A stretch of DNA of 33,742 bases from a virus, in the IMG/VR virus record IMGVR_UViG_3300025162_000121, positions 1-33,742 of that record. One strand, 5' to 3'. This document shows, one piece after another, positions 3,411 through 33,742 of this stretch (position 1 is the stretch's first letter; every line of letters starts with the position of its first letter). The notes beneath the pieces were generated by a model. It made no database searches. It saw only the letters and a list, made by a program, of their open reading frames with translations, and was not told the origin of the DNA. A program made the translations under genes and the position numbers.

Positions 3411-3620
3411 CTAGCGATTACCTGTTAATTTTTTAAATTTTTGTTCCATCTCGTAATCTTCACGGCATTCTGCGGAACAGAATCTGCCTTGTGCAATGGT
3501 TTTATTACAGTAAAGACAGTGCCCTGAGAACTTTAACGGCTGTTGCGCCCGTACTGCTTTAATTGCTAAATCCCGATGCAAGGCTTCTAAATCGCTTGCA
3601 TCATCGAATAGATCGCTCAT
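3411..3620 (-). CDS. Small zinc-finger protein (69 aa)
   Basis: The second half has CLYCNKTIAQGRFCSAECRE, four cysteines in a C-x2-C...C-x3-C layout that should bind one zinc ion. The N-terminal half is acidic then helical (DLFDDASDLEALHRDLAIKA). Phages often encode such DksA- or Zn-ribbon-like small proteins close to the lysis genes; their role is unproven and may be binding nucleic acid or RNA polymerase. It is the last intact gene of the minus-strand block, starting one base after the Rz stop. Confidence 0.75.
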   Translation of the reverse strand: MSDLFDDASDLEALHRDLAIKAVRAQQPLKFSGHCLYCNKTIAQGRFCSAECREDYEMEQKFKKLTGNR

Positions 3621-4016
3621 TTACATTCCTGCTTGTTGCTTAATCCAGTCTTGTAAACTGACTAATTGTTGCGTTGTAGCGGCGCAAGCAAGTAACTGGT
3701 CGGTGGCGCTTTCATTAACTCCGCTGGCGGGGTTGGAAAGGCTGGGCATTGAACCGCTACCGGGCTGGCGCAGCCCGTTATAATAAGACTTGAGAGCAGA
3801 CAACTTAGTTTGGTATTCATTAATAACCCCTTTATTAATTAGTTCTTGCTCTTTAATTTTTGCTTTATTTTCTGCAATTTGTTTATCTGCAATAGTTGCT
3901 ACTTCTGCTTTGTATGTTACAAGAGCATTATGCTCATATTTTCCATAGCCAACACCAAACAAAGCTAAAGCTGCTAAAGCAATCATAATATAACCGCTTA
4001 AAGTTAACCCGAACAT
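3621..4016 (-). CDS. Rz: Inner-membrane spanin (Rz-like), 131 aa
   Basis: The N-terminal signal anchor (about residues 5-24) is followed by a long charged helix (ADKQIAENKAKIKEQELINK) and a C-terminal helix (ACAATTQQLVSLQDWIKQQ), the layout of Rz i-spanins. In Gram-negative lysis the i-spanin in the inner membrane pairs with the outer-membrane lipoprotein Rz1 to disrupt the outer membrane. The assignment is strongly backed by an Rz1 frame nested inside it. It overlaps the lysozyme gene upstream by 13 bases. The Pro/Gly/Ser-rich stretch before the last helix is where the out-of-frame gene imposes its codons. Confidence 0.9.
   Translation of the reverse strand: MFGLTLSGYIMIALAALALFGVGYGKYEHNALVTYKAEVATIADKQIAENKAKIKEQELINKGVINEYQTKLSALKSYYNGLRQPGSGSMPSLSNPASGVNESATDQLLACAATTQQLVSLQDWIKQQAGM
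3662..3820 (-). CDS. Rz1: Outer-membrane spanin lipoprotein (Rz1-like), nested in Rz, 52 aa
   Basis: This frame lies wholly inside Rz in another reading frame. From the ATG at 3820, with AAGGGG just upstream, it reads MNTKLSCLLSSLIITGC, a lipoprotein signal peptide ending in the lipobox I-T-G-C with Cys17 as lipidation site. The mature part of 36 residues is Pro-rich (CPAFPTPPAELMKAPPTS). Signal, lipobox, proline content, length and position all match Rz1 o-spanins, which sit in the outer membrane facing the Rz C-terminus. This is the canonical nested Rz/Rz1 architecture and is easily missed by gene callers. Confidence 0.93.
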   Translation of the reverse strand: MNTKLSCLLSSLIITGCASPVAVQCPAFPTPPAELMKAPPTSYLLAPLQRNN

Positions 4017-4462
4017 TGTGCGTATTCCTCTTGTCTGCGTTTAACAAGCCCCGGCAACACTTTGCCCCCAGCTTGATTCCACTTTAATAACTCTTTGCAA
4101 GCCCCTGCATAATCGCTTGAATTGAGCTTTTTATTAAGGGTTGAATGACAGAAAGCAGACACCCCAACATTATAGGTAAAATCCAAATAAGCATCATATT
4201 CTCCTTGAGAGATAGGCACATGAATACAATCCGCCATACCTTTGGCATGAATGTTTACACTATTTTCTAATACCTGAAGCGCCCTTACAGGATTTGTAGT
4301 TTCGTTTGCTTTAGTTCCATCAGCTTGACCAAACCCAATTGTTTCTACGCCAGCAGTATCTTTATATGATGTATTGCTATAGCCTTCATGTACAGCAATT
4401 CCTACAAGAACAGATGCGCTTGCTATTAAAGATGCAGCCGCAGTGCGTTGTTTAGATATCAT
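4004..4462 (-). CDS. SAR endolysin, GH24 lysozyme (152 aa)
   Basis: Phage lysozyme of the T4/P21 type that cleaves the N-acetylmuramic acid to N-acetylglucosamine bond of peptidoglycan. The catalytic triad spacing E-x8-D-x5-T is exact: Glu26 (HEGYS), Asp35 (YKDTAG) and Thr41 (ETIGFG). The first 24 residues hold a weakly hydrophobic Ala/Ser/Gly-rich segment (AAASLIASASVLVGIAV) without a signal-peptidase site, typical of signal-anchor-release endolysins that are exported by Sec, stay tethered and inactive, and are freed when the membrane is depolarised. It overlaps the holin-like gene by 11 bases upstream and Rz by 13 bases downstream. Confidence 0.95.
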   Translation of the reverse strand: MISKQRTAAASLIASASVLVGIAVHEGYSNTSYKDTAGVETIGFGQADGTKANETTNPVRALQVLENSVNIHAKGMADCIHVPISQGEYDAYLDFTYNVGVSAFCHSTLNKKLNSSDYAGACKELLKWNQAGGKVLPGLVKRRQEEYAQCSG

Positions 4463-4649
4463 TAAGGGGTTTATTAGTTACAAAGCGTAACAAAATACAG
4501 ATAATGGCTACTATTACCCCAATCAGGGCTTGCCATCTAGGATCTATAGGAAGATAAAAAACAAATCCTTGTAAAACTGAAAGCGTACCAATAATTATCG
4601 CAAACCAAACGGTTTTTGATTTATAGGCACATTTAAGTTTATCCCACAT
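4452..4649 (-). CDS. Holin-like two-pass membrane protein (65 aa)
   Basis: A short basic N-terminus (MWDKLKCAYKSK) is followed by two hydrophobic segments (about residues 14-33 and 41-59) and a basic tail RFVTNKPLNDI. Size, topology and position directly before a SAR endolysin fit a pinholin or class II holin that sets lysis timing by permeabilising the inner membrane. There is no dual-start motif for an antiholin in the sequence. It is joined to the lysine-rich gene upstream by TAATG. Holin function is inferred from topology and context. Confidence 0.75.
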   Translation of the reverse strand: MWDKLKCAYKSKTVWFAIIIGTLSVLQGFVFYLPIDPRWQALIGVIVAIICILLRFVTNKPLNDI

Positions 4650-4849
4650 TACTTCTTTTTAACTGTAGCCTTTTTTGCTACTTTAGTAGCTTTTTTGGCA
4701 ACAACCTTTTTGGCTATTGGCTTACGGGTAGTGGCTTTTTTAAGAGTAGGCTTTTTTAGCGATTCGCTTAAAGAAACAATTTCCATAACTTCTTCTCTAG
4801 GAACAGGGAAAGGTTTTCTTGTGAGCAATGCAGCAATTTTCTTTAACAT
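4649..4849 (-). CDS. Lysine/alanine-rich, histone H1-tail-like protein (66 aa)
   Basis: Residues 32-66 are a low-complexity Lys/Ala/Thr/Val stretch with repeated KKAT and AKK units (for example KKVVAKKATKVAKKATVKKK), like the C-terminal tails of histone H1 and bacterial H1-like proteins. The N-terminal half is a short ordinary helix-forming sequence. Such tails bind DNA or other polyanions without sequence specificity. Finding one in a lysis cassette is unexpected; it could condense DNA, bind lipopolysaccharide or peptidoglycan, or regulate the holin. It is joined to both neighbours by TAATG-type overlaps, so it is made together with them. Confidence 0.7.
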   Translation of the reverse strand: MLKKIAALLTRKPFPVPREEVMEIVSLSESLKKPTLKKATTRKPIAKKVVAKKATKVAKKATVKKK

Positions 4850-5082
4850 TATTTATCTGCCTTTTGGTCAAGTTTGTCAAAAATCTTATCTAAAATAACT
4901 TCTAGCTTATCGAATCTTGTATTAATGTCCGCTTTTTTTACATAATGCTCTGCTACATTTAGCTCTAAACTAGCTACATCTTCTTTAAGTTTTTGTGTTG
5001 CATCCCATATTTGACGAGCAAACCAACCAATAGAAGCAATAAAAGCGGCTAATCCCAAATTTACAAATGATTGCCAATCCAT
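4849..5082 (-). CDS. Membrane protein with coiled coil, XhlA/holin-associated-like (77 aa)
   Basis: One membrane segment near the N-terminus (VNLGLAAFIASIGWFA, about residues 7-22) is followed by a long amphipathic helix with heptad spacing (KLKEDVASLELNVAEHY... DKLEVILDKIFDKLDQKADK). This N-terminal anchor plus coiled coil matches XhlA-type hemolysin/holin-accessory proteins and class III-like holins. It is the first gene of the lysis cassette, with GGGG about ten bases before its ATG. Either the holin or a holin partner of the 65-aa gene downstream. Confidence 0.7.
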   Translation of the reverse strand: MDWQSFVNLGLAAFIASIGWFARQIWDATQKLKEDVASLELNVAEHYVKKADINTRFDKLEVILDKIFDKLDQKADK

Positions 5083-5107
5083 GTATTACCCCGATAAAAC
5101 GCTAAAA

Positions 5108-5113
5108 ATTATA
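5108..5113 (-). promoter_or_regulatory. Possible -10 (TATAAT) before the lysis cassette
   Basis: The minus strand has a perfect TATAAT about 25 bases before the ATG of the first lysis gene, overlapping the stop of the gene upstream. The best -35 is CTGAAA at a short 15-base spacing, so promoter activity is doubtful. Confidence 0.25.
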
Positions 5114-5543
5114 AGAATTTTATCACTTTTTCAGGTTTTACAAAAGCATCTGGATTATGAGGTGTAAAGTCCCACCAAAGAAATTGATTTGCCGCTAGAT
5201 AATCACGGCTTTTCAATAAATTAATGTTTTCAGGGTGTCCAAATATAAGTGGGTCACTGACTGACCAAAGAACTATGCCCGGTTTGCCTTCATCCCAAGC
5301 TAGGTGCTGAAAGAAACTATCTATACCTATCCAAGTACGGCATTGAGCTAACAGTTTTCGCAACTCAGACATTGGAAGATTCTTCCTAAAGTCAGGTACA
5401 AGCTGTTCTTCACCTTCTACCCCGATTTGGATGATAGGTTCATCAATTAGGGCTATTAGCTCTTTCCAATAGGCAATATCTGGTGATTTAGGATTAAGAC
5501 CGCCTTTAATTAAAGGCTTGGCAAAGGGCTGAATAATAATCAT
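5109..5543 (-). CDS. Glycosyltransferase family 9-like, C-terminal half only (144 aa)
   Basis: The block WIGIDSFFQHLAWDEGKPGI followed by VLWSVSDPLIFGHPENINL is the donor-binding half of heptosyltransferase-like (GT9, GT-B fold) enzymes, where G-x-D-S-x-x-x-H-L-A and a later x-D-P are conserved. A full GT9 enzyme is about 300-350 residues with two Rossmann domains; only the second is here. The matching first half (NSGLGDHI) is fused to the C-terminus of the gene just upstream, which overlaps by ATGA. The two products probably associate into one active enzyme, or the gene was split by a frameshift. The substrate is unknown; sugar transfer to virion protein or host surface glycan is inference. 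Confidence 0.7.
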   Translation of the reverse strand: MIIIQPFAKPLIKGGLNPKSPDIAYWKELIALIDEPIIQIGVEGEEQLVPDFRKNLPMSELRKLLAQCRTWIGIDSFFQHLAWDEGKPGIVLWSVSDPLIFGHPENINLLKSRDYLAANQFLWWDFTPHNPDAFVKPEKVIKFL

Positions 5544-6505
5544 AAATACAGTTTTCTATAGGCATTTTCTAAGCTATCTTTCCACTTCCACTGCGCCATC
5601 TTTTTATAGATGTTCCATTGGTCTAAATCACCAAATAAATTCTGCGCTTCTGCTATTGATTTACCGGGAACAATTTCTGGGTAACAAGTAAATACAATAG
5701 GGCTGCGGATTGAAGGCAATATGCGACTAAATACAATGTGATCGCCAAGCCCGCTATTAAGTACCACAATGGTTTTATCACGATATTGAAGAAAGTTTCT
5801 AAAAATTTGTTCATCATGGGCAAACATCTCCTGCTTAGTTTCACTACGAATTCCGCCTTCGGGGTTTTTAAAGTGCCATGTTACTGCATTGGGAACAGCC
5901 AATATCTTATAGCCCTTTTGCCGTAAGCCCCAAGTAAACAGCGTTTCTTCCCTATGACAAACCCTAGAAAGTCCTAAGTTGTAGTCGTGTACGCCCGCCC
6001 TATATAGAAAAGAGCAATGCAAGTGATCTACTTCTTTAGTAACATTTATGTTACCCCATTGGATATTAGGTTCAAGATCAATTTTATCTATATCACCTGT
6101 TGATATAGAAGTATCGGGAATATAAGGTGGGGTAAAGATAGATCCACCAATTGCCCCAACTGTAGTATCAATGTAGCTACAAAGCTGTTCTAAAACATTG
6201 GGTTCAGGTACAGCATCGTCATCACACCGCCATACCCATTCGTATCCCATTTCATTGGCTTTTTGATGGATATGGTGTTGACCTTTTTTCTCGGCAAATA
6301 GCCATTCCCATTTAAGACCTTTGATGTCCATCATGGCAAACAAATGCCGATACATAGGGTTTTCCCTCATATCTTGAGGTTCATCATTATCATCAAAAAT
6401 GACCAGCTTATCTGGAAGTCTGGTCTGATTAATGATTGCCGAAAGAACTAATGGCAAAGTTGTTGTATATCGCCCTCTAGTGGCTACGGAGCAGAGTATT
6501 TGCAT
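5540..6505 (-). CDS. Glycosyltransferase family 2 fused to GT9 N-terminal half (321 aa)
   Basis: Residues 1-235 are a GT-A fold GT2 enzyme: N-terminal MQILCSVATRGR, nucleotide-sugar/metal motif RCDDDAVPEPN (Asp95-97), and the acceptor-side segment HREETLFTWGLRQKGYKI. From about residue 243 a second domain starts, KTIVVLNSGLGDHIVFSRIL, which is the N-terminal Rossmann strand and G-x-G-D loop of GT9 heptosyltransferase-like proteins. The protein then stops after about 79 residues of that domain, and the rest of GT9 is the next ORF. It overlaps the GT2-methyltransferase gene by 22 bases. This should transfer sugars in the cytoplasm; the acceptor is unknown. Confidence 0.85.
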   Translation of the reverse strand: MQILCSVATRGRYTTTLPLVLSAIINQTRLPDKLVIFDDNDEPQDMRENPMYRHLFAMMDIKGLKWEWLFAEKKGQHHIHQKANEMGYEWVWRCDDDAVPEPNVLEQLCSYIDTTVGAIGGSIFTPPYIPDTSISTGDIDKIDLEPNIQWGNINVTKEVDHLHCSFLYRAGVHDYNLGLSRVCHREETLFTWGLRQKGYKILAVPNAVTWHFKNPEGGIRSETKQEMFAHDEQIFRNFLQYRDKTIVVLNSGLGDHIVFSRILPSIRSPIVFTCYPEIVPGKSIAEAQNLFGDLDQWNIYKKMAQWKWKDSLENAYRKLYL

Positions 6506-7713
6506 ATCATTAAATTGGATATATTGACATTATCTATGGCTTGAGGAAGGCTTGAAATATCGCCAGCATGGTTAATATACTCAAATTCAAAGCCGGGGAA
6601 ATGGCTTTCATTTAAGCCATGCAGCTTATGATGTTCTCCCCAAAAACCTTTAGGCTCATTCCAAGGAACAGTGATTAATAGCTGTTTGCAGTGAGCTTTA
6701 AGCTTTTCTACAATTTCTAAGCCGTTATCTAAATGTTCAATAACTTCAAAAGCAACAATGTTATCGTAAAACTCTAAAGCATACTGATTAATATCAGCAC
6801 TAACAAAAACCCGATTACTTCCCCAGTGCTGATCCTTCGCCACATCAACAATAATAGGGTCATAGTCAAGCCCAATGTAACTAACATCTGAAGGGAAAAA
6901 TTGAGTTCCATAACCTGTTGTGCATCCTATTTCAAAAATTGAACCATTTAAAAGCTGTTTCTTTGCCCATTCATATCTTTGCGTTTCTCTTGGAAACACT
7001 GGATCGCCTTTGAGAAAGACAGCTCTTTCAAAGTTATTGGACAACAAAAACTTATAGTATTCGGTATTGTATTTTTTGGCTAGTTTTAGTTCGTTAGCGT
7101 GAAACTTGGCTTTCCATCCCTGTACCAATGCTGGGTCGTGCATTGTGCCTTCAGCTTTATGGTAAATGGGGTAAGTGCCATTGTTTGAACATTCAGCTAG
7201 GGTAAACCCTGCTTTTTCAGCTAGATAGCAAAACTCAATGTCCTCACAGCCACCAGTTCCATATTCTTCATTTAGCAGTCCAATAATGTCAAACACTTTC
7301 TTTTGAATCATAGCGCAAAAGAAAATGCCAAACCGTCTTTGAGTAATGGGGGAATTTTGCCCTAATACATAGCTTACATCGCCTTGATCTAACAGTTCTA
7401 ACCATTGGTTTTTAGGCTGATTTAGCAAGATCGTGTCATTATTTAGCAAAACAATCTTGTCACTAGAAGCTAGTTTGATGCCTTCATTGGTAGCTGCTGC
7501 AAACCCCAACGGCTTTTCATTCCAAGTCACCAACAAATTGGGAATGGCAGTGTAAAGATATTGCAAATATTGAGCAGTATTATCAGTACAGCCATTAGCA
7601 GAAATGACCAACTCTATGTCGGTCATTTCAGTATATTTAACAATGGAATCTATACAGGGTTTAAGGTATTTTTCGCAGTTGTTATAGGTCGGTATTACGA
7701 TGCTATATTTCAT
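6484..7713 (-). CDS. Bifunctional GT2 glycosyltransferase / SAM methyltransferase (409 aa)
   Basis: Residues 1-210 are a GT2 domain (MKYSIVIPTYNN, glycine-rich acceptor loop EKPLGFAAATNEG, DXD-like LLNNDT at 89-94, CEDIEFCYLAEKAG near 156-169). Residues 250-400 are a class I methyltransferase with motif I FEIGCTTGYGTQF (260-272), the SAM ribose-binding acid in GLDYD (281-285) and FEVIEHLDNG (322-331). The fusion suggests that a transferred sugar is then methylated, capping a glycan. It begins the glycosylation block downstream of the tail genes. The target could be virion proteins, such as the Ser-rich fibre, or a host surface polymer. Confidence 0.88.
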   Translation of the reverse strand: MKYSIVIPTYNNCEKYLKPCIDSIVKYTEMTDIELVISANGCTDNTAQYLQYLYTAIPNLLVTWNEKPLGFAAATNEGIKLASSDKIVLLNNDTILLNQPKNQWLELLDQGDVSYVLGQNSPITQRRFGIFFCAMIQKKVFDIIGLLNEEYGTGGCEDIEFCYLAEKAGFTLAECSNNGTYPIYHKAEGTMHDPALVQGWKAKFHANELKLAKKYNTEYYKFLLSNNFERAVFLKGDPVFPRETQRYEWAKKQLLNGSIFEIGCTTGYGTQFFPSDVSYIGLDYDPIIVDVAKDQHWGSNRVFVSADINQYALEFYDNIVAFEVIEHLDNGLEIVEKLKAHCKQLLITVPWNEPKGFWGEHHKLHGLNESHFPGFEFEYINHAGDISSLPQAIDNVNISNLMICKYSAP

Positions 7714-7727
7714 GGGTATATATTACA

Positions 7728-8255
7728 CTAACTACTCCATTGCTCCGTAGGCGCTGTAGGAAATACTGGTGCCGTTGTAGGTGGGTTTACACCAATAGCT
7801 CTTACGGCACTACGATAAGATAAGAACTCAGCTTGATTAGTTAAATAAGGATTTGATACTGCTGGGTCTGCAACAGAAGCAATAGCTGTCCAATCTGTAG
7901 CAGATAAAAGTTGTTGTGCTGTAGCTGAAGTTTGAGCTTGTAAATTAGCAATATAAGCAGCTTGTTGTTCTGGGGTCATTTCAGTAATAGTCCAACCCAA
8001 TGTCCAAACACCATCAATTAATGTAGGATTGTCATTTTGAGTGCAAATTTGGGTTGCAGGGTCATAAGTAGGTTGCGTTGCATCAATTACAGAAGCTAAA
8101 GTATTCCCTGTAGTAATGGCTGTATCTGTCATTGGATACCAATAAGCCACATCTTGATTAGAGCCATAATTAGTATATGGATTTTGCGCTTGTAATTGAG
8201 CAAATCCATAAGGATAAAGAATTAGGGTTGTACCATTGATTTCTGCGTATATCAT
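7728..8255 (-). CDS. Tail-fibre-associated / tail assembly chaperone-like protein (175 aa)
   Basis: The C-terminal region LLSATDWTAIASVADP... followed by FLSYRSAVRAIGVNPP resembles the phage tail assembly chaperone (Phage_tail_APC) pattern, in which a S/T-D-W block is followed by Y-R-x-x-L/V-R. The N-terminal half (GTTLILYPYGFAQLQAQNP) and the middle Ala/Gln-rich helix (TPEQQAAYIANLQAQTSATAQQ) recall fibre-assembly proteins. It lies downstream of the fibre genes, consistent with helping fold or assemble a fibre. Moderate confidence in type, low in exact role. Confidence 0.6.
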   Translation of the reverse strand: MIYAEINGTTLILYPYGFAQLQAQNPYTNYGSNQDVAYWYPMTDTAITTGNTLASVIDATQPTYDPATQICTQNDNPTLIDGVWTLGWTITEMTPEQQAAYIANLQAQTSATAQQLLSATDWTAIASVADPAVSNPYLTNQAEFLSYRSAVRAIGVNPPTTAPVFPTAPTEQWSS

Positions 8256-8258
8256 AAA

Positions 8259-8492
8259 TTAAGCCTCATTAATAATTGCTGTTGATGTATCTTTATCTAT
8301 AGTCATTACGCCATAACAAGCTACATTCCAATCTTCACTATTTTCTTCTTTTTCGCTATAAGAACTAACATTTATCTTAAAGTTTTTAAAAAGATATTCT
8401 TTATCACCTTCAAATACACGCCAAACATGGTCTTTTGAACCACGATTGGGCAATCCTCTTGTTTTATTAAATCTAATTCTATATTTGTTCAT
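8259..8492 (-). CDS. Conserved small phage protein paired with the oxygenase (77 aa)
   Basis: A basic, aromatic-rich protein (YRIRFNKTRGLPNRGSKDHV, WRVFEGDKEYLFKNFKINV, DWNVACYGVMTIDKDTSTAII). I recall near-identical small proteins in cyanophages and other aquatic phages, often beside 2OG-Fe(II) oxygenases, with no known function. It starts in an ATGA overlap with the oxygenase stop, so the two are co-translated. A compact beta-rich fold is likely. No catalytic motif is visible. Confidence 0.7.
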   Translation of the reverse strand: MNKYRIRFNKTRGLPNRGSKDHVWRVFEGDKEYLFKNFKINVSSYSEKEENSEDWNVACYGVMTIDKDTSTAIINEA

Positions 8493-9142
8493 ACAATCTC
8501 AGCTTTTGCTTCAGGAATTGGCATTGCTTGTTGAACAGTTAAATTAAAATGAATAAAACGAATAGGGCTATCAGAAGCGTGTTTAGTAAACGAATGGGCT
8601 AACCAAGCGTTAGTAAACATTAACAAACCTTCTTTAGGCTCAAAGTTAATCATATTGCTTGCAGCAGTAGCTTCAGTCATATCAGACTCAGGTAAGTTAA
8701 TTTGCACTTTACCAGCTCTGGGGTCATAAAATATGGCTTTTGAGCAATTCTCAGGGACATCTACAAAATAAAACCCTACTATTTGTGAACCAAAACCATG
8801 AATATGTTGCTCCATAGAAGAATGTTTGTGATGTTCTTGACACCAAAATTCAGTAAATATAGTGTTATAGATGTCCATTGCATACCCTTGTTCTTTCAGG
8901 ATATTCCAAGCAGTTTGACCAATGTATTCGGATAGCTTATCCATGCCGGGATAGTCAAACAAGTTTTCTGTCATATAGACAGGATAGATTTCATCTAACT
9001 TGCGGTCTTTCTTTTGCTTGGCTACTGCTTTTTTACAAGCCGCTTTAGCATCAGCTAAGAACTCTGGTTTTTCTATAACATAAACAGCCGCAGGAAAATA
9101 ATAAAAAGCCTGTAGCTGTTCTTGGGTTGGGGAATCACTCAC
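8489..9142 (-). CDS. 2-oxoglutarate/Fe(II)-dependent oxygenase (217 aa)
   Basis: A double-stranded beta-helix oxygenase of the 2OG-FeII_Oxy_5 type common in aquatic phages. The first metal-binding segment is MEQHIHGFGSQIVGFYFV with His113/His115, and the second is NAWLAHSFTKH with His183, followed 12 residues later by Arg195 (SPIRFIHF), the expected 2-oxoglutarate ligand. It should couple O2 and 2-oxoglutarate to hydroxylation of an unknown substrate. Start is GTG at 9142 with AAGGAA eight or so bases upstream. Its position between fibre genes and glycosyltransferases suggests modification of fibre residues or sugars, which is inference. Confidence 0.88.
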   Translation of the reverse strand: MSDSPTQEQLQAFYYFPAAVYVIEKPEFLADAKAACKKAVAKQKKDRKLDEIYPVYMTENLFDYPGMDKLSEYIGQTAWNILKEQGYAMDIYNTIFTEFWCQEHHKHSSMEQHIHGFGSQIVGFYFVDVPENCSKAIFYDPRAGKVQINLPESDMTEATAASNMINFEPKEGLLMFTNAWLAHSFTKHASDSPIRFIHFNLTVQQAMPIPEAKAEIV

Positions 9143-9174
9143 GATAATTCCTTAAATTGGATTGGAAGTCTATA

Positions 9175-9609
9175 TTACCCTACTTGAGTTGGTGGGGTGA
9201 ATTCTATCCATGAATTTGTTGTGCCATCCCAACGATATGCTTTACCGTCAGCTGGGTATGGGATAGGCGGTTGGTATGAACAAGTAGTTTCATCAAAAGC
9301 CCATGCACTGAAATTAGCAAGGTTTGGTCTTTGCGCCCACAAGTCTTTAGCTGCTTGTTGTTTGGCGGCTTTTTCTTCGTCAGTCATATCTCGAACAGCC
9401 CAAGTATCCATCCAATAGCCAGTAGCTTCATTGAACTCATAAGTTGGTTCTTCGCTAACTAATACTTGATATACAGATAAAGTAGGTTGTTGAACCCGGA
9501 TAAAAGGTTGCCAACTTGAAGGTACAGCGCCAAAAGCTGCCATTAAATTATCCATTAAAGCTGGATGATTAATTGGATTTCCGTTTTCAATTTGAATATA
9601 TAAGTTCAT
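9175..9609 (-). CDS. Tail-fibre-associated hypothetical protein (144 aa)
   Basis: Begins MNLYIQIENGNPINHPALMD and ends with an aromatic-rich segment YRWDGTTNSWIEFTP. The end W-D-x-x-T-x-x-W recurs in the 1200-residue fibre (WIWNGTAWF), a short beta-hairpin pattern seen in phage fibre and assembly proteins. The middle is an acidic/Lys/Ala helix (TDEEKAAKQQAAKDLWAQRP). I recall relatives in cyanophages near tail fibres, without known function. Likely a fibre-assembly factor or minor fibre component. Confidence 0.6.
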   Translation of the reverse strand: MNLYIQIENGNPINHPALMDNLMAAFGAVPSSWQPFIRVQQPTLSVYQVLVSEEPTYEFNEATGYWMDTWAVRDMTDEEKAAKQQAAKDLWAQRPNLANFSAWAFDETTCSYQPPIPYPADGKAYRWDGTTNSWIEFTPPTQVG

Positions 9610-9629
9610 TTTGTTTCTCTAAATTAATT

Positions 9630-11303
9630 TTAAGGTGTTGCTGTATTAATTGATGGGAATGACCTTAAACATCCGGGATAAATGATACGGACTGCTCCAA
9701 CTCCACCTACACCAGATAATCCGCCACATAATTTAGACGCTCCGCCACCACCACCGTAAGCTCCGCCAGTACCTCTAACAGTACAGCTGCCAGTTGCTCC
9801 CGCTGCCCCACAAGAACCACCACCACCGCCAGCATAATAGTTTGGGTATGGAACATTTGTGCCTGTAGCCCCAAATCCTAATAGCCCAACTCCGCCTCCT
9901 CCACCCGGCCATACTCCATTAGTTCTTATTGGAGTTCCTGCTCCTCCAGCGCCAGCTCCTGAACAAAAAACAGAAGCCCCGCTTCCTGCATCTCCGCCGT
10001 TACCACCATTTCCATTATATCCGCCAGCACCGCCCCCACCGTAAGAAACTACACCCCCTCCGGAACTAACACCGCCATTACCACCCCCATCGCCAGTATA
10101 AGTCCCTGCAACACTATTACCACCGCTTGATGCTCCACCGCCACCGCCACCACCTTTTACAACCGCAGTAGAACAAAAATAACTGCAACCGCCAGAAGCT
10201 CCATTAGTAGCTCCGCCAGCGCCAACTACTACTGTATAAGAATTACCGGTGGTAACAGAAATTCTATTTTTATACCCAATCCCACCGCCAGCTCCACCTT
10301 GACCGCCAGTTCTACACCCGCCGCATGAATAACTAGACCCGCCAGCTCCACCGCCCCCAACAGCAACTACAGAAACAAAATTTATTCCAGCGGGCGCAAC
10401 CCAACTGTAAGTCCCTGCGGTTGTATAAGAAGATGATCCACCTGTTGACGGAAAAGCTACGCTAGTAGAAGGAAATTGACGAACACAGCCGGGGGAAATA
10501 ATACGGACTGCTCCACCGCCACCGACACCGCCAGTGCCGCACCCACTAGATGAACCACCACCACCACCACCTCCAAAAGCGCCTCCTTTAGCTCCTGTAG
10601 GATAACCGCCTACACTAAATCCAGAAGAACCAGAGCTTCCCCCGCCGCCTTTGGAACTTGCATAAGTACATTTAATTCCTTTTGTTCCGTTTGAACCTTG
10701 ACCAAATACAGAAACCCCGCCGCCGCCTGAAGCACCACAATTAGCGGCTGATACACCGCCACCACCACCGCCGCCAGAACCGGCGGTAGCCGCACAAAGG
10801 CTATAGTTTGAACCAGCACCGCCAGCTCCAGCGTACCCACCAGCTCCACCGCCGCCGCCGCCGCCACCCGCATAATGAACTCCACCAGCTCCACCAGCTC
10901 CACCAGTTCCGGCAGTGACAGTTCCCCCAGCTCCCGCCGCAGTAAAACTGCCAGCACCGCCGCCAGTAGCGTTAAGAACGCTTGTGCTTACAAAATAACT
11001 ACTACCGCCAGCAGCGCCGACTACTACCGTATAAGAATTACCGGGGGTTACGGTAATATTGTTTTTGTAAGCTAAAGCTCCACCGCCACCACCCCCGCCA
11101 GAAGCGCAAATAGAACATAAACCTTGACCGCCATTACCACCGCCAGAAACAACTATAGCTGATACTTTAGTAACCCCTGTAGGAGCTACCCATGTATAAG
11201 TGCCTGAAATAAAGTAACCTATATCATAAGTTGCTAATTTACTTGTGCTACCAAAGCCATAAGCTCTAGCTGAAACAGAACCTCTAGTAATGATTGTTGG
11301 CAT
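9630..11303 (-). CDS. Gly-rich adhesin-like protein with two tandem domains (557 aa)
   Basis: Two homologous units of about 250 residues (roughly 33-280 and 296-551). Each opens with G-T-Y-T/S-W-V-A-P and V-S-A/V-x-V-V-x-GGGG, continues with NSYTVVVGAGG, then poly-Gly blocks, and closes with GAVRII-x-PGC-x-R-x-FPS. This matches the phage glycine-rich domain; in T-even phages comparable poly-Gly modules stack as polyglycine II helices in the receptor-binding tip adhesin. Many cysteines (C63, C66 and others) are unusual for a virion fibre and may form disulfides. It follows directly after the long repeat fibre, a natural place for its tip. Receptor-binding role is inference. Confidence 0.75.
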   Translation of the reverse strand: MPTIITRGSVSARAYGFGSTSKLATYDIGYFISGTYTWVAPTGVTKVSAIVVSGGGNGGQGLCSICASGGGGGGGALAYKNNITVTPGNSYTVVVGAAGGSSYFVSTSVLNATGGGAGSFTAAGAGGTVTAGTGGAGGAGGVHYAGGGGGGGGAGGYAGAGGAGSNYSLCAATAGSGGGGGGGVSAANCGASGGGGVSVFGQGSNGTKGIKCTYASSKGGGGSSGSSGFSVGGYPTGAKGGAFGGGGGGGSSSGCGTGGVGGGGAVRIISPGCVRQFPSTSVAFPSTGGSSSYTTAGTYSWVAPAGINFVSVVAVGGGGAGGSSYSCGGCRTGGQGGAGGGIGYKNRISVTTGNSYTVVVGAGGATNGASGGCSYFCSTAVVKGGGGGGGASSGGNSVAGTYTGDGGGNGGVSSGGGVVSYGGGGAGGYNGNGGNGGDAGSGASVFCSGAGAGGAGTPIRTNGVWPGGGGGVGLLGFGATGTNVPYPNYYAGGGGGSCGAAGATGSCTVRGTGGAYGGGGGASKLCGGLSGVGGVGAVRIIYPGCLRSFPSINTATP

Positions 11304-11304
11304 A

Positions 11305-14300
11305 TTATTTAAACTGAGTTTGAGAAGCTAATACAGTAAATGTGGCAGAAGCCGTTTTAATAACAGTATAGGTATAAACATCAATACCGCTTGCATTACC
11401 AGCCGTAGGTGCGCCACCTTGCCACTTGGTTGTTACTCCTGATGTTGCGCCATCTACTTGAACCGCAGAGTTGTAATAAGCAGTAGCGCCTTGTGTTACT
11501 AAAAAAGCTACAGTTAATGACTGACCTGTAGATAATGCTGTGTTCATTGTTGTTCCGCTAGAGAATGTCAAATTGACAGTCCAGTTAGCAGAAGCGCTAG
11601 TTGTGTAATAAAGAACAGACTGAGTAGATGGGTAGTAAGCAATCGTTCCTGTTGCAGCTGTTGCGCTTATTGTGGTTGTTTCTGCGGCATTTAATAATAC
11701 TTCGGCTAAAGTGCTAGAAGTTCCATTAAAAGTTTGAGTTCCTGTCCAAGTATTATTTGTGCTAGTTGTAATAGACAAACCAGAATATCCGCTATAGCCA
11801 GAGATGCCGCTATAACCAGAGAATCCAGAAATACCTGAACCAGAATATCCACTAATACCTGATCCGCTATAGCCAGAGAAACCACTATAGCCGCCTTGAC
11901 CGCTAAAACCGCTATAGCCAGAAGTGGCAACGCCTGAGTAACCTGAAATACCAGAGAATCCTGAATAACCTGATACTTGTGCGCCTGAATACCCAGAAAA
12001 ACCTGAATAGCCAGATACACCAGAACCGCTGTAACCAGAAAAACCAGAAATGCCGCTGCCGCTGTATCCAGAAGTGCCGCTATAACCAGAAGTACCGCTG
12101 TAGCCAGAAATGCCAGAATAGCCACTATAGCCTGAAATTCCTGATCCACTATATCCAGAAATGCCGCTATAACCACTAATTCCAGAATAGCCTGAAAAAC
12201 CGCTAATTCCGTTTGTGCCATTTATACCAGAATAACCTGAAATTCCACTAAACCCAGATGCGCCAGAAAATCCAGATATACCAGATCCTGAATAACCTGA
12301 GTATCCTGAAATACCAAATCCAGAATATCCAGAAAAACCTGAGATTCCAGATCCGCTATAACCTGAGAATCCGCTAATACCGCTATATCCTGAATATCCA
12401 CTATACCCAGAAATACCAGAGCCGCTAAACCCTGAAATTCCGCTAAAGCCAGAGATGCCTGAATCACCAGAAAAACCGCTAATACCAGAATCGCCAGAGA
12501 ATCCGCTTATACCTGAGTCACCAGAGTACCCACTGATTCCAGAACCTGAATATCCGCTAAACCCTGAAATACCTACTTGACCGCTGTATCCAGAAAATCC
12601 GCTGTAGCCAGAAATTCCTGAGTATCCTGAAAATCCAGATGTTCCTTCTGCGCCGTCAATACCAGAATATCCAGACTCGCCGCTAAATCCGCTGTAACCG
12701 CTTGTTCCTGAATAGCCAGATGTGCCTATTCCACTGTATCCAGAAAAACCAGATAAGCCATTTTGCCCAGAATACCCGCTTGTACCTGAAAATCCTGAAG
12801 TGCCAATACCGCTGTAGCCAGAAATTCCGCTATATCCGCTAAAACCAGAAATGCCGCTGTAACCGCTATATCCTGAAGTTCCACTGAACCCGGAAATACC
12901 AGAGTAACCCGATGTACCAATTCCGCTAAAACCACTGTAACCTGAAAAACCAGACTGACCTGAAGCGCCTACAATAGTGCCAGCATCAAACCATGCAGTG
13001 CCGTTCCAAATCCAAAGATCGCCAGTATCTGTAGTAATGTAAGCATCGTTAGGAAGGTTGCCTGTTGGTGGAAGATCGGCTGAAGTTGGTACAGAGCCTT
13101 TGATATTAATAGATGCGCCTTGTGCGCCTGAGTATCCAGAAAAACCAGAAGTACCATTAATACCGCTAAAACCAGAAGCCCCATCAATACCAGAGAAACC
13201 GCTAAAACCAGAAGCCCCACTGAATCCAGAGATGCCACTATATCCGCTAATTCCAGAGAAACCGCTGATACCGTTATCTCCGCTAAAACCGGAAATACCA
13301 GAAAAACCAGAAGTTCCTGATAATCCATTTTGTCCGCTATAGCCAGAAAAACCTGACTGACCATCAATACCCGAATATCCACTTATTCCAGAATCACCAG
13401 AAAAACCACTTGTTCCCGAATAGCCCGAAAAACCACTTGTTCCCGAATAACCGGAAATTCCGCTAAATCCTGAAATGCCTGAATAACCGCTGATACCAGA
13501 AAAACCACTGTTTCCAGTTGATCCACTTAATTCTGTTTTCCAAGAAGAAGATGGATTATCAAAAGGTGTACCACCATCACCTAAAATATCAACGTAAATT
13601 GCCCAGCCACCGCCGGCAGCAAATAAAATATTTGTTATTTGACCAACATAGTAAAAAGTAGAATCAGTAGTTAAATCTACTAAATTAACAAAATTTCCAA
13701 TTGAAAAAGCATTTGGGTTTGGGGTGTAAAAATTAACATTTGTTCCAATTAATGTTCCATCGGTTGCCCAAGTTGCTCCATCTACTTCTAATGGCGCAAA
13801 TCCTAAACCTGAATAGCCTGAAAATCCAGAAGTTCCACTAAAACCTGAAATACCAGAATCGCCACTAAAACCAGAAATTCCTGAATACCCAGAAAAACCG
13901 CTTATACCTGAGTAGCCGCTAAAACCTGAAACACCAGAAAATCCTGAATCTCCGCTGTAGCCAGAAAATCCTGAATCTCCGCTGTAGCCAGATAAACCAT
14001 CAATTCCGCTAAAACCCGAAAATCCTGATTCGCCAGAAAATCCTGAATAGCCCGAAAATCCTGACTCGCCAGAAAATCCACTTATTCCTGAATATCCACT
14101 AAATCCAGATATACCTGAATAGCCACTAAATCCTGAGATACCAGAGCCAGAATATCCAGAAAAGCCTGATGCTCCGTTAGTACCATTTGTACCACTAAAA
14201 CCTGATTGACCAGAATAGCCGCTAAAACCTGATTGACCGTTTATACCGCTATAGCCGGATATTCCACTATAGCCTGATGTACCATTAATTCCTGAAAAAC

Positions 14301-14907
14301 CACTAAAGCCGGAAATGCCGACAGCTCCAGAAATACCAGAAAAACCAGAGTAACCAGAATTGCCTAATCGACCTGAGTAACCGCTAAATCCTGAATAACC
14401 TGAAATGCCTGATTGACCATTTTGACCAGAAATACCGCTAAATCCTGATAGACCGCTATAACCTGATGAACCACTTTGACCAGAAAATCCGCTAGTTCCA
14501 TTAAGACCTGAATATCCGCTAAACCCTGAAATACCTACTTGACCGCTGTATCCAGAAAAACCACTATAGCCAGAAAATCCGCTAACAGTGTAGTTTTGAT
14601 TAAAAGCTTGTAATGTGCCAGCAGTTAATAAATTGGCTGCAAAGTCACCAATTTGCCAATCTAAAGCAATAGTACCTTCTTGCGCTCTTTGAACAGTAAA
14701 TACATCTCCAGTAACGCTAATAACATTACAGATTTCTGTAATTAAATTATTAGTAGCATTAATTAAAGTAAGCTTAAAAGCTTCTCCAGTAGTAGGCTGT
14801 GGAAAGTATTGACCCGTACCACTAGCAACCGTAATGGTTGTATCAGTTGGCGCTACAGGTAAAGCTAAATTTGTTTGCGCTTGATTGGCAAATAGCAAAA
14901 AGGTCAT
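11305..14907 (-). CDS. Collagen-like Gly-Phe/Tyr-Ser repeat tail fibre (1200 aa)
   Basis: Residues 1-105 are a virion-anchor domain (MTFLLFANQAQTNL..., FTVQRAQEGT) homologous to the start of the 622-aa fibre. About 790 of the remaining residues are Gly triplets in which the third position is nearly always Ser and the second is Phe, Tyr, Ile, or less often Thr, Asp, Glu, Gln (SGFSGYSGISG). Occasional GSG steps break the phase. Two folded islands interrupt it: about residues 373-470 (ATWATDGTLIGTNVNF...) and 620-680 (SADLPPTGNLPNDAY... WIWNGTAWF). The last 155 residues are a non-repetitive beta-rich head. It is a long fibre shaft with a tip. Proline is nearly absent, so a standard collagen helix is not certain. 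Confidence 0.85.
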   Translation of the reverse strand: MTFLLFANQAQTNLALPVAPTDTTITVASGTGQYFPQPTTGEAFKLTLINATNNLITEICNVISVTGDVFTVQRAQEGTIALDWQIGDFAANLLTAGTLQAFNQNYTVSGFSGYSGFSGYSGQVGISGFSGYSGLNGTSGFSGQSGSSGYSGLSGFSGISGQNGQSGISGYSGFSGYSGRLGNSGYSGFSGISGAVGISGFSGFSGINGTSGYSGISGYSGINGQSGFSGYSGQSGFSGTNGTNGASGFSGYSGSGISGFSGYSGISGFSGYSGISGFSGESGFSGYSGFSGESGFSGFSGIDGLSGYSGDSGFSGYSGDSGFSGVSGFSGYSGISGFSGYSGISGFSGDSGISGFSGTSGFSGYSGLGFAPLEVDGATWATDGTLIGTNVNFYTPNPNAFSIGNFVNLVDLTTDSTFYYVGQITNILFAAGGGWAIYVDILGDGGTPFDNPSSSWKTELSGSTGNSGFSGISGYSGISGFSGISGYSGTSGFSGYSGTSGFSGDSGISGYSGIDGQSGFSGYSGQNGLSGTSGFSGISGFSGDNGISGFSGISGYSGISGFSGASGFSGFSGIDGASGFSGINGTSGFSGYSGAQGASINIKGSVPTSADLPPTGNLPNDAYITTDTGDLWIWNGTAWFDAGTIVGASGQSGFSGYSGFSGIGTSGYSGISGFSGTSGYSGYSGISGFSGYSGISGYSGIGTSGFSGTSGYSGQNGLSGFSGYSGIGTSGYSGTSGYSGFSGESGYSGIDGAEGTSGFSGYSGISGYSGFSGYSGQVGISGFSGYSGSGISGYSGDSGISGFSGDSGISGFSGDSGISGFSGISGFSGSGISGYSGYSGYSGISGFSGYSGSGISGFSGYSGFGISGYSGYSGSGISGFSGASGFSGISGYSGINGTNGISGFSGYSGISGYSGISGYSGSGISGYSGYSGISGYSGTSGYSGTSGYSGSGISGFSGYSGSGVSGYSGFSGYSGAQVSGYSGFSGISGYSGVATSGYSGFSGQGGYSGFSGYSGSGISGYSGSGISGFSGYSGISGYSGYSGLSITTSTNNTWTGTQTFNGTSSTLAEVLLNAAETTTISATAATGTIAYYPSTQSVLYYTTSASANWTVNLTFSSGTTMNTALSTGQSLTVAFLVTQGATAYYNSAVQVDGATSGVTTKWQGGAPTAGNASGIDVYTYTVIKTASATFTVLASQTQFK
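11775..14585 (-). repeat. Degenerate 9-bp-period repeat encoding Gly-X-Ser triplets
   Basis: Three blocks (about 13805-14585, 13120-13535 and 11775-12970) with a 9-base codon-triplet period and frequent 18-base higher-order units alternating Phe and Tyr. Synonymous codons are mixed, so the DNA is less repetitive than the protein, as expected if selection acts against slippage and recombination. Confidence 0.85.
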
Positions 14908-15203: not shown

Positions 15204-17072
15204 TTAGACCTTTGCTTGTAACGCAGCGATATACGCAGCTTGAGTGTTAGTAATATTTTCCAACGATGAAACTTTTTGATTTAATTCTTTGATTGCTCCA
15301 ACAAGATATGCTGTCATATCTCCATGAAAACCATAAGTTAAAACTTTATCTGAAACATATTGTGCTTCTTCTTTAGTTGGTTCTCTTGAAGTAACACATA
15401 AGGGTAATACTTTTTGAATTTCTTGAGCAATAAATCCAACTGTAGGTTCATTTTCGGTTGGTATTTTTAAATCAAAAGTAACTGGATTTAATTTATTAAT
15501 AAAATCTAAAGACCCTGTTAAAGCGGTAATATTTTCTTTAAGTCTTTTATCAGAAATTGGTACAGACCAAGAACCTCCACCCGGTTTGTATCCTGTACCA
15601 TAAGTAACATATAGGTTACCAGAAGCAGTTAAATTGTTAACAATAGTAAGATTACCAAGAGAGTCTGCAGTCCAACAAATTTGACCTGCAACTTTAGCGT
15701 ATAAATTTGAACCATTATTAGTTTCAATTGCTGTACTACCATCAACATTAGCAAGTTCAACTGAAGTTGGCGTTAATACGCCTACAAATCCACCACCAAC
15801 TCCACTACTGTAAACTTGAACCCCCGGATAATCAACTTTATTACCACCAATAATAACTGCAGCAGGGTAAATATTTTGGGCAAAAGATACATGACTTGCA
15901 ACATATTGATCTGTAGGAGTTACTAAAGATAAAGCACTAATACTTGCTGGAGTAACTGCTACTGTGCCAGTAGAACCATTAACTGTAGTAACACCACTAT
16001 TAGTTACTGTTACTGCTCCAGAAGGGCTAGAAACATTGATACCTGCACCTCCAGTTATGGAAGTTACACCTCCAGCAACGCCGGGGGCTGGATTTAATAA
16101 CATCCAAGTAGAAGCAGAGCTAGAATAGACTAATTGACAAACATATCCTACCCCGCCTGTATCGCCAGCCGATAATGGAGCATTGGCATACTTTTTAATA
16201 ACTGTTGCACCTGTGACTGTAGAGCCATAGGTAACATTTAAGGTAGGTGTTGTAGTAGTGTTTGCTGAAGTAGTATTTCTAAAAGTGACTATAGCGCCAT
16301 CTACCAAGCTAGTTAAACCAGCAGGGACAGTTAAAGTTATTGCATCAGAACTACCGCCAGAAGTGTTATAGGTAAAATACTCATCTTGAACTTGAGTAAT
16401 ACCAACCACACCTGTTATTGGGTCATAAGGGTTTTCCAGTACAAAAGCACCAGCGCCGCCATTATAGTTAGCGTTATAAGTCATCAAACAAAGATAATTT
16501 GCACCTGTAATTTCACCGCCAGTTAACGCAATAGTGCCGTTTCTATAGATTGGCAATGCGCCTGTACTAGTAGTAGCTCCGCTTCCCGGTAAAGTCGGGT
16601 TTAAAGTTAAATTTAAAGTAGCTGCGCCAGTATTAGCATTTGCAGCATTTAAAATAAATTGAAACCCATTTGGTAATGATGTAGCAGTTAAATTAGATGC
16701 AATAGTGGCTGTTAGAGCATTGGCTGTTCCAGCGCCATTGGTAAAAGTATATGCGCCATTTTGAAGTTGATCTATTTGAACAAAATCTTGCTGTGTTCCT
16801 GCCGTTGGGAAACAACTAGCATAAGATCCAGAAGCAAAAGAAGAACCATTTGTGCCTTCTTTGGCACGAATACAAGTAATGGTGCTTCCAGTAACATTAA
16901 TTACCCAAACAATCTCATTAGTATTTCCGCTTGTAAAAGTCATTACAAAGTATTGACCTGCGGATGGGCTAGGAAGCCCTGCTGTAGAAGTTAAAGTTAC
17001 AGAGGTCTGAGATGATGTAATGCTTGTCGCTAAAGTCGTCTGTATATTGTTAGCAAACAATAAAGTAGCCAT
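15204..17072 (-). CDS. Tail fibre with C-terminal S74 intramolecular chaperone (622 aa)
   Basis: The N-terminal ~100 residues (MATLLFANNIQTTL..., ITCIRAKEGT) match the anchor of the 1200-aa fibre. The middle is Thr/Asn/Gly-rich beta-structure with repeated ANTTTTPTLNVT-like and VTTVNGSTGTVAV segments. The last 117 residues are a peptidase S74 / endosialidase chaperone: SDKRLKENI with the Ser507 and Lys512 dyad at the correct spacing of five, then NKLNPVTFDL, GFIAQEIQKVLP, AYLVGAIKELNQKV and a coiled coil. This domain drives trimerisation and is then released by self-cleavage before Ser507. Receptor-binding fibre or spike. Confidence 0.9.
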   Translation of the reverse strand: MATLLFANNIQTTLATSITSSQTSVTLTSTAGLPSPSAGQYFVMTFTSGNTNEIVWVINVTGSTITCIRAKEGTNGSSFASGSYASCFPTAGTQQDFVQIDQLQNGAYTFTNGAGTANALTATIASNLTATSLPNGFQFILNAANANTGAATLNLTLNPTLPGSGATTSTGALPIYRNGTIALTGGEITGANYLCLMTYNANYNGGAGAFVLENPYDPITGVVGITQVQDEYFTYNTSGGSSDAITLTVPAGLTSLVDGAIVTFRNTTSANTTTTPTLNVTYGSTVTGATVIKKYANAPLSAGDTGGVGYVCQLVYSSSASTWMLLNPAPGVAGGVTSITGGAGINVSSPSGAVTVTNSGVTTVNGSTGTVAVTPASISALSLVTPTDQYVASHVSFAQNIYPAAVIIGGNKVDYPGVQVYSSGVGGGFVGVLTPTSVELANVDGSTAIETNNGSNLYAKVAGQICWTADSLGNLTIVNNLTASGNLYVTYGTGYKPGGGSWSVPISDKRLKENITALTGSLDFINKLNPVTFDLKIPTENEPTVGFIAQEIQKVLPLCVTSREPTKEEAQYVSDKVLTYGFHGDMTAYLVGAIKELNQKVSSLENITNTQAAYIAALQAKV

Positions 17073-31686: not shown

Positions 31687-32493
31687 TTATCGCTTTGTAT
31701 TTTCAGTATTAAACTTCATTACCCGATGAGCTGGGAGTTTGAAATCACCTAACCATGCTTCCATATCGCCACGGAATTCTGTGATGGTACGACCAGCGCG
31801 GTCTTTTTTGTGCAATTCGATCAATTGACCTTTTGCAATTGCATTTGTGCCACGGGAAGCAGCTAAAGCGTCAGCGTATACACGTTTTTCAACAACGGCG
31901 AGCATAGCATCGTCTTTGATTGAATTAATGTTTACGTTTTTCATTTCATCGCTATGAGCTTGCAAACCACGAAGCATACGTTTGCGATAAGCAGTTAAGC
32001 TCTCGCCTTGCAACGGACGTGATGCAGATTTACCAAAAGCGGAATACACAGAGTCAGCTTTAGCTTGGCAATCAGCGTAAGCAGCTTCATCTTCGTCGCA
32101 TTTCTTGGCTTCTTCTTCGTCATCCATTTTAGCTTCTTCGTCATCGTCAAATTTCATCTCTCCGGCTGGCATTTCTACCTTGCCTTCAGAATCAGATTTT
32201 TCCATAGGAGCAGCTTTTTCAGATTCATCATCTTTTTTAGCTTTACGCATCATGAATTTTTTAGCTTTGGCTTCAGAATCATCATCTTTTTTAGCTTCTT
32301 CTTCTTCATCGTCATCCATGCGATCATCTTCGTCTTTTTTGGCTTTTTTATCAGCCGCAGTGACTAGGGGTGGAGCAGGTAAGTTTTTTTCCATTTCATC
32401 TAAACGGGTCATTGTTTTACCCAATAAAGACATAATGGCATCTAATTTATCGCCTTGGGCATCTGCCTTTGGCTCAATCTTATTTTCAGTCAT
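31687..32493 (-). CDS. Scaffold-like protein with charged Lys/Asp/Glu repeats (268 aa)
   Basis: I chose the ATG at 32493 because GAGGTG lies nine bases upstream and it overlaps the protease stop by eight bases; an upstream ATG at 32508 would add five residues with no ribosome binding site. The N-terminus is a helix (LDAIMSLLGKTMTRLDEMEK), then about 100 residues of alternating KK and DDEEE blocks (AKKDDDSEAKAKKFMMRKAK), then a folded-looking helical C-terminal part ending GDFKLPAHRVMKFN. Long charged helices between protease and capsid genes are typical of capsid scaffolds removed by the prohead protease. Assignment by composition and gene order. Confidence 0.65.
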   Translation of the reverse strand: MTENKIEPKADAQGDKLDAIMSLLGKTMTRLDEMEKNLPAPPLVTAADKKAKKDEDDRMDDDEEEEAKKDDDSEAKAKKFMMRKAKKDDESEKAAPMEKSDSEGKVEMPAGEMKFDDDEEAKMDDEEEAKKCDEDEAAYADCQAKADSVYSAFGKSASRPLQGESLTAYRKRMLRGLQAHSDEMKNVNINSIKDDAMLAVVEKRVYADALAASRGTNAIAKGQLIELHKKDRAGRTITEFRGDMEAWLGDFKLPAHRVMKFNTENTKR

Positions 32494-33742
32494 TTTCAGA
32501 CACCTCATTGTTAGTTAATAAAACGCCAGCAGCATCGCCACCTTTGTCCCATACTCCTTTTGAACCCCTAGCTTTCGTAACGATTGCTATGTGATCCAGC
32601 AGGAACGGCACACCTTCTATCAAGAGTGGCTCGCCATTCTCAGTAGTCAATGTAATGTTACCAGCAGTTTCGTCAAAAACAACTGCTGGGGAAGTCGATA
32701 CTTCGCCTTCCAAGATTTCGTTAATTGCGTCTTGATCGTAAATCTTCGCAATACCCCAAACTTCATCGCCTTTAATGTAAGGCATTAAAACGCTACCTAC
32801 AGCACGTTTTTTAAATTCTTCTGGGGTTAATACTTGAGTTTCGGGGTGATCCATAACCACCATCAAGCCATTACAGCGCTTTAGAAACTCATCGTTTAAA
32901 TAAAGTGACGGATCGCGCCAAACGTGTTCGCCAATGCTAGACCGGAACGCGAGTCCAGTGCCTGTAATGCGAATTGCCAGTAAAGCAATATTGGCGTACA
33001 TTTGGGGACTAGCCAAAATACCTTGACTGATTAGTTCCGCAATATCAGTTTCAGTTTTGGCTTTAGCAACTTTGAAAGCAATATCCATGCCCGGATGAAG
33101 CGGCAGTGGAGGGCAATCCATACGACACCAATCGTAGCCTGTTGATTCATAATTAAGTTTAACATCGCCTTTTTCTACATTTCGAGCGATATAAGTACAA
33201 AATTGCCCATCATCAAACAATACTTCTAACTTACCTTCGTACTTTAAACCTGTTTCTTCAAAGCACTCACGGCGAACCGCATCCTCTAAATCTTTATCTT
33301 CTGAATTTTGATGCCCGCCGGGTACAGCCCAAGTGCCGGGATAGTCACCACCATCGCCTCGGCGAATCAATAAAATCTCTTCTTCACCCGTAACAAACAT
33401 AATCCCCGCGCAACGTCCAGCCGCGCCCGCGTCGTTTGCAACAGGCATTACTACTGGAGGTTCTTCAGGTACAGTTTCTACGGAATCTTCTTTACAATCA
33501 TTTTCAGGAACTTTATCTTCCTCGTTCCCAAGCTTTACAATCATTTCGTCAGATTTTATGCCGTTAATGTGCTGGGCAATTTGGCGAAGTTTATCCCCAA
33601 TATCTTTAACTTGAAGTTTTTGTAGCTCATGGCTTAAATCAATATGAGCTTCAGGAGTTAATAGTTGTGGGGCTTCATCGCCTTTTAACAGATTAACTTC
33701 CATTTCTTTTAATAACAATTCGTCAAGCCATTCAAGATCATT
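32486..33742 (-). CDS. Nudix hydrolase fused to DUF2213-type prohead protease (partial at right edge)
   Basis: The frame is open to the right edge, so the true start is outside. Numbered from a TTG at 33718: residues 1-55 are a helical leader; 101-220 a Nudix domain with AVPGGHQNSEDKDLEDAVRR and RECFEETGL, in which the REUxEExGU half is intact but the preceding Gly-to-Glu spacing is two residues longer than the canonical Nudix box. Residues 240-400 look like the DUF2213 capsid maturation protease (VWRDPSLYLNDEFLKRCNGL, VVMDHPET with His291, VGSVLMPYIKGDEVWGIAKI, STSPAVVF with Ser341/343). The protease should process the scaffold and capsid. The role of the Nudix domain, which normally cleaves nucleoside diphosphate derivatives, is unknown. 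Confidence 0.8.
   Translation of the reverse strand, partial: NDLEWLDELLLKEMEVNLLKGDEAPQLLTPEAHIDLSHELQKLQVKDIGDKLRQIAQHINGIKSDEMIVKLGNEEDKVPENDCKEDSVETVPEEPPVVMPVANDAGAAGRCAGIMFVTGEEEILLIRRGDGGDYPGTWAVPGGHQNSEDKDLEDAVRRECFEETGLKYEGKLEVLFDDGQFCTYIARNVEKGDVKLNYESTGYDWCRMDCPPLPLHPGMDIAFKVAKAKTETDIAELISQGILASPQMYANIALLAIRITGTGLAFRSSIGEHVWRDPSLYLNDEFLKRCNGLMVVMDHPETQVLTPEEFKKRAVGSVLMPYIKGDEVWGIAKIYDQDAINEILEGEVSTSPAVVFDETAGNITLTTENGEPLLIEGVPFLLDHIAIVTKARGSKGVWDKGGDAAGVLLTNNEVSEND

Follow-up and report, generated by a model that had tools for sequence, protein, structure and literature searches.

BclA of Bacillus is a collagen-like protein. According to three papers (PMC6222408, PMC7793302, PMC7157674), BclA and, in C. 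difficile, BclA3 (with SgtA) are glycoproteins of the spore surface, and the exosporium glycan of B. anthracis is capped by a methylated sugar, anthrose. Viruses offer further parallels: the Mimivirus lysyl hydroxylase/glucosyltransferase L230 modifies the virus's own collagen-like protein (PMC9614988), and glycans on the virion proteins of Mycobacterium phages are reported to be linked to phage glycosyltransferases (cited in PMC12619734). The EPcl proteins of E. coli O157:H7 are collagen-like, trimeric and likely phage tail fibres (PMC3368898). Finally, the TibC/AAH autotransporter heptosyltransferases are WaaC-like GT-B enzymes that modify several Ser residues of a repetitive surface adhesin, TibC being a protein heptosyltransferase that modifies Ser and not Thr (PMC4358343).

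Here we describe a phage locus that resembles each of these systems in part. A three-gene cassette (5109-7713) is probably a dedicated, horizontally mobile unit that glycosylates the Gly-X-Ser shaft of a nearby fibre (11305-14907). Like TibC/AAH it would act on many Ser residues of a repetitive surface protein, but it has two extra enzymes, a two-chain GT9 and, as putative substrate, a collagen-like phage fibre. L230 modifies Lys via hydroxylation, whereas Lys is absent from the present repeat, to which the oxygenase encoded nearby is unlinked. BclA and BclA3 are spore proteins, whereas the phage cassette has no adjoining sugar-synthesis genes and its transferases differ. The Mycobacterium phage glycans are reported to lie on the C-termini of capsid and tail tube subunits rather than on a collagen-like fibre. 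Unlike EPcl, the repeat contains no Pro and carries Ser in third place. We know of no glycosyltransferase cassette linked to EPcl fibres. A search covering open-access literature found no description of the pairing of cassette and Gly-X-Ser fibre, which is weak evidence of novelty.

The window is the whole stretch of DNA considered here, a 33.7-kb record (IMG/VR IMGVR_UViG_3300025162_000121, positions 1-33,742). Judging from its sheath and baseplate genes, it is a fragment of a contractile-tailed freshwater phage; its capsid protein shares 48-53% identity with those of Pantoea PdC23, Klebsiella Chronis and other phages. Away from the fibre region, an imperfect tandem repeat (24-30 bases) lies at 32212-32301, close to where the gene at 31687-32508 begins. 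The features discussed below are the following.

5109-5543, minus strand: cassette gene 3, GT9 (heptosyltransferase-like) C-terminal donor-binding half (Pfam), overlapping gene 2 by 4 bases
5540-6505, minus strand: cassette gene 2, GT2 with a short GT9-like N-terminal half carrying a conserved GxGDH (Pfam, model, motif)
6484-7713, minus strand: cassette gene 1, fusion of a GT2 and a class I methyltransferase (Pfam, structure model)
7728-8255, minus strand: tail-fibre-assembly-like ORF
8259-8492, minus strand: 77-aa ORF that accompanies the oxygenase
8489-9142, minus strand: 2OG-Fe(II) oxygenase (PF13759, 1.3e-10)
9175-9609, minus strand: small ORF, perhaps for fibre assembly
9630-11303, minus strand: Gly-rich protein, likely an adhesin (phrog_4474, PF21722)
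11305-14907, minus strand: Gly-X-Ser collagen-like fibre of 1200 aa (repeat count, Pfam)
15204-17072, minus strand: tail fibre with an S74 chaperone and an N-terminal domain that it shares with the Gly-X-Ser fibre

Five ORFs, spanning 3.6 kb, separate the cassette from the fibre. A first-pass annotation had placed the fibre and the enzymes in one operon. The shared strand and the small gaps or overlaps between all of these genes, intervening ORFs included, agree with that arrangement; co-transcription itself is a prediction from the layout.

The fibre consists of an N-terminal domain (residues 1-108), an interrupted Gly-X-Ser shaft and a C-terminal domain (about residues 1046-1200). Counting runs of at least five triplets, we find 254 Gly-X-X triplets (762 aa); Ser occupies the third position in 217 of these, and the repeat as a whole contains 226 Ser, close to the roughly 790 residues and 260 Ser first estimated. 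The X position is occupied mainly by Tyr (65), Phe (62), Ile (53) and Thr (19). Glycine recurs at every third residue in long runs, as in collagen, and the Pfam Collagen profile (PF01391) matches at E=5e-91; the Pro-rich X and Y positions of classical collagen are absent, with Pro 0 and Lys 0 in the repeat. Its Ser codons are drawn from both families, TCN and AGY, which argues that the pattern is kept at the protein level and is not just a product of recent DNA duplication. Residues 1-108 resemble the start of the S74 fibre (41%), so both fibres probably share a mode of attachment to the virion.

For the enzymes, Pfam, structure models and motifs agree with the identities first proposed (GT2-methyltransferase, GT2-GT9, GT9 half and 2OG-Fe(II) oxygenase), the GT9 halves being the weakest assignments. 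Gene 1 matches GT2 at 7e-19 and class I methyltransferase at 1.5e-7. Gene 2 matches GT2 at 1.5e-4, slightly below the curated cut-off. The models of the two GT2 proteins (pLDDT 92.5 and 90.4, the latter backing the assignment of gene 2) have GT-A folds, with the methyltransferase domain in the first. Invariant motifs are present in the alignments, DDD (28/28 rows) and HREE in one GT2 and NND (26/26 rows) in the other, and both proteins thus show the GT-A fold and conserved acidic donor/metal motif of GT2 enzymes. Their matches in the PDB (TarS, TarP, K4CP, GalNAc-T, LH3/ColGalT1) are broad and point to no particular sugar.

The GT9 appears to be split over two overlapping ORFs. Its N-terminal half, at the end of gene 2, is assigned by the invariant GxGDH motif alone (GDH in 28/28 aligned rows, no profile match). 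Gene 3 matches the C-terminal part of GT9 at 2.6e-4, slightly below the cut-off; all eight scanned members of its family match PF01075 (best 4e-9), and an alignment to WaaC (E=0.003) brings the D-S/T motif into register, as predicted for a WaaC-related donor-binding C-terminal domain. A PDB search with the two halves joined as a profile gave no matches. The 4-base overlap recurs in 136 loci and a fused form was never seen, so the split seems to have been kept in well over 100 loci. Across about 170 loci the gene order is constant: methyltransferase (which may carry an N-terminal GT2), GT2 with a GT9-like tail, GT9 C-terminal half. The methyltransferase is fused to the GT2 in a few cassette loci, and gene 1 has no GT2 part in some relatives.

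One of these relatives is an isolate, Methylophilaceae phage P19250A, a siphovirus with a non-contractile tail of the host-specificity-J type. Of sixteen queries from the window only the three cassette genes match it, at 59-70% identity, and it has the repeat as well. Its gp23 (KX815270.1, 21390-24995) is annotated as "tail length tape-measure protein"; its sequence is that of a Gly-X-Ser collagen-like fibre. This gene directly precedes the methyltransferase gene, and genes 24-26, which are unannotated, are the cassette genes.

The same pairing recurs when loci are collected by the GT2-methyltransferase alone (n = 80). The first-pass annotation had named enzymes equally frequent without the repeat as the case against its proposal; a Gly-X-Ser ORF was instead present with the three cassette genes at 52/52 loci with 2.5 kb or more of upstream sequence (44/44 and 29/29 when more upstream sequence was required), counts that, like all co-occurrence counts here, are inflated by related contigs, near-duplicates and shared ancestry, most records being fragments, and whose Fisher p values ignore relatedness and are descriptive. 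The figure of 52/52 comes from a relaxed repeat detector, a strict one giving 48/52; the four loci seemingly without a repeat were all positive in the relaxed count, and the two that we inspected have interrupted repeats. Cassette and repeat were always on the same strand (158/158), the cassette usually directly downstream. Within a genome collection, the cassette was found in only three metagenome-assembled contigs, one of which has both repeat and cassette. A contig binned as the archaeon Candidatus Nitrosotalea has a Gly-X-Ser fibre and cassette; it is probably a phage contig.

In the reverse direction, we chose records by repeat DNA alone (n = 77) and searched each whole record with the cassette GT2 profile. 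The cassette GT2 was present in 56/77, or 56/65 once 12 contig-edge misses are set aside by judgement (fibre near the contig end, with at most about 1.3 kb left). At least nine repeat records, from about six lineages and mostly large phages, have room downstream and no cassette. Three of these nine carry other GT2 genes. Among those whose surroundings were covered by a profile search of the neighbours, none has a diverged cassette beside its cassette-free fibre, and a Pfam scan of ten neighbours of such large-phage fibres found no glycosyltransferase. Near one such fibre, a pair of genes of 520 and 166 aa is cassette-like in size; it has no similarity to the cassette.

These exceptions bear on what the repeat is for. 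Over all cassette loci the third-position Ser:Thr ratio is 15490:396 (39 to 1), with Ser codons from both families, which indicates that Ser is selected. In the cassette-free Gly-X-Ser fibres the ratio is 4062:301, a weaker but still strong bias; Ser is thus kept not by the cassette alone. The persistence of the repeat in fibres of some large phages that lack the cassette means that it has an independent structural function. The cassette-free fibres, together with the 3.6-kb gap in the window and the split GT9, which could be degenerate, are points against a dedicated glycosylation cassette. The split GT9 and the cassette-free fibres also feed a reading in which the linkage carries no function, the cassette being an inactive or unrelated part of a hitch-hiking late-region block. 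With catalytic motifs invariant over the aligned families, and with the adjoining C-terminal fibre domain occurring without the cassette, we regard this as very improbable.

Three comparisons separate the shaft from its surroundings. The cassette GT2 was in 0/50 records chosen by a Gly-Pro-X collagen pattern, one of which proved to be mostly Gly-X-Ser, also without the cassette. At loci with the fibre's C-terminal domain and no repeat the cassette was found in 0/41, of which 22 have at least 5 kb downstream, as against 9/9 loci that combine that domain with a repeat of 40 or more GXSG and have 3 kb or more downstream. Among phages with the same baseplate protein, it was present in 12/12 whose repeat is followed by 3 kb or more and in 0/7 repeat-less ones with 8 kb or more downstream. 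It is therefore the shaft that the cassette tracks, rather than the tip domain, the phage backbone or collagens as a class.

This bears on the proposal that the cassette modifies host LPS or O-antigen, in superinfection exclusion or receptor change, and travels beside the fibre as a host-recognition module. GT2 and GT9 are typical LPS/O-antigen families, there is a weak PHROG match to GtrB-like O-antigen conversion, and the authors of a pelagimyophage study proposed such a role for fibre-region glycosyltransferases (PMC7029224). We consider this role unlikely: the cassette follows the shaft and is absent beside the C-terminal domain without the repeat and from the Gly-Pro-X records, and no GtrA-like flippase or GtrC PHROG match was seen among the genes scanned at 3411-9609. 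The linkage to a structural repeat also makes it extremely improbable that the enzymes modify phage DNA, as some phage glycosyltransferases do (background in PMC12619734); no hydroxymethylase or other DNA-modifying partner was seen adjoining the cassette.

The remaining ORFs between fibre and cassette behave differently from the cassette. The oxygenase had been counted as part of the glycosylation system, a claim that we drop: among 32 oxygenase loci the repeat was seen in five and the cassette in six (two of these six cut upstream), and the repeat was not seen at 27/32, some of them too short to judge. As far as its relatives tell, the oxygenase is a separate fibre module, unlinked to repeat or cassette. 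The 77-aa ORF nearly always comes after it, and a relative of 9175-9609 often comes before it; the pair at 8259-9142 is conserved in other fibre regions. The Gly-rich protein sits between fibre and cassette in the window and could in principle be the true substrate, as could the capsid or tail, with the cassette merely co-traveling with Gly-X-Ser fibres; Mycobacterium phages, whose capsid and tail tube subunits are reported to bear glycans (cited in PMC12619734), lend this some plausibility. Yet the Gly-rich protein was not found with most cassette copies, and the repeat is what a myovirus and P19250A, a siphovirus unrelated to it, have in common, so that we consider another virion protein a decidedly unlikely target.

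The preferred reading, then, is that the cassette glycosylates the fibre shaft, and its presence beside such fibres in many unrelated phages suggests that phages may coat Gly-X-Ser fibres with their own sugars. Two glycosyltransferases, one GT2 and one GT9 rebuilt from two polypeptides, would draw on host nucleotide sugars to assemble a short O-glycan at the Ser in third position. The first sugar might be added by either enzyme, and the optional extra GT2 might lengthen the chain. The methyltransferase would methylate one of the sugars, probably leaving methylated sugars on Ser. Ser O-glycosylation is favoured by the 39 to 1 excess over Thr, by the evidence that Ser is selected and by the TibC precedent. 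The glycan may protect or stabilise the proline-free shaft, or shield it. Animal collagen is stabilised by (hydroxy)proline. A tentative extension, which we think rather doubtful, is that dense Ser glycans take over that role in a "glyco-collagen" of a widespread class of aquatic phages, stabilising a proline-free Gly-X-Ser triple helix.

If the preferred reading is right, many unannotated glycosyltransferases of aquatic phages would gain a concrete substrate, whereas genes related to them are usually taken to modify LPS or DNA. With its three genes and single repetitive substrate, the cassette would be a compact, testable system for protein O-glycosylation. It would also exemplify a split GT-B enzyme and might show how collagen can be stable without proline. 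P19250A, an isolated phage with both repeat and cassette, allows a direct test. Beyond these loci, a 494-kb virus record has, at about 430-442 kb, a 2500-aa open frame with several GT2 matches, within about 4 kb of a relative of the cassette GT2.
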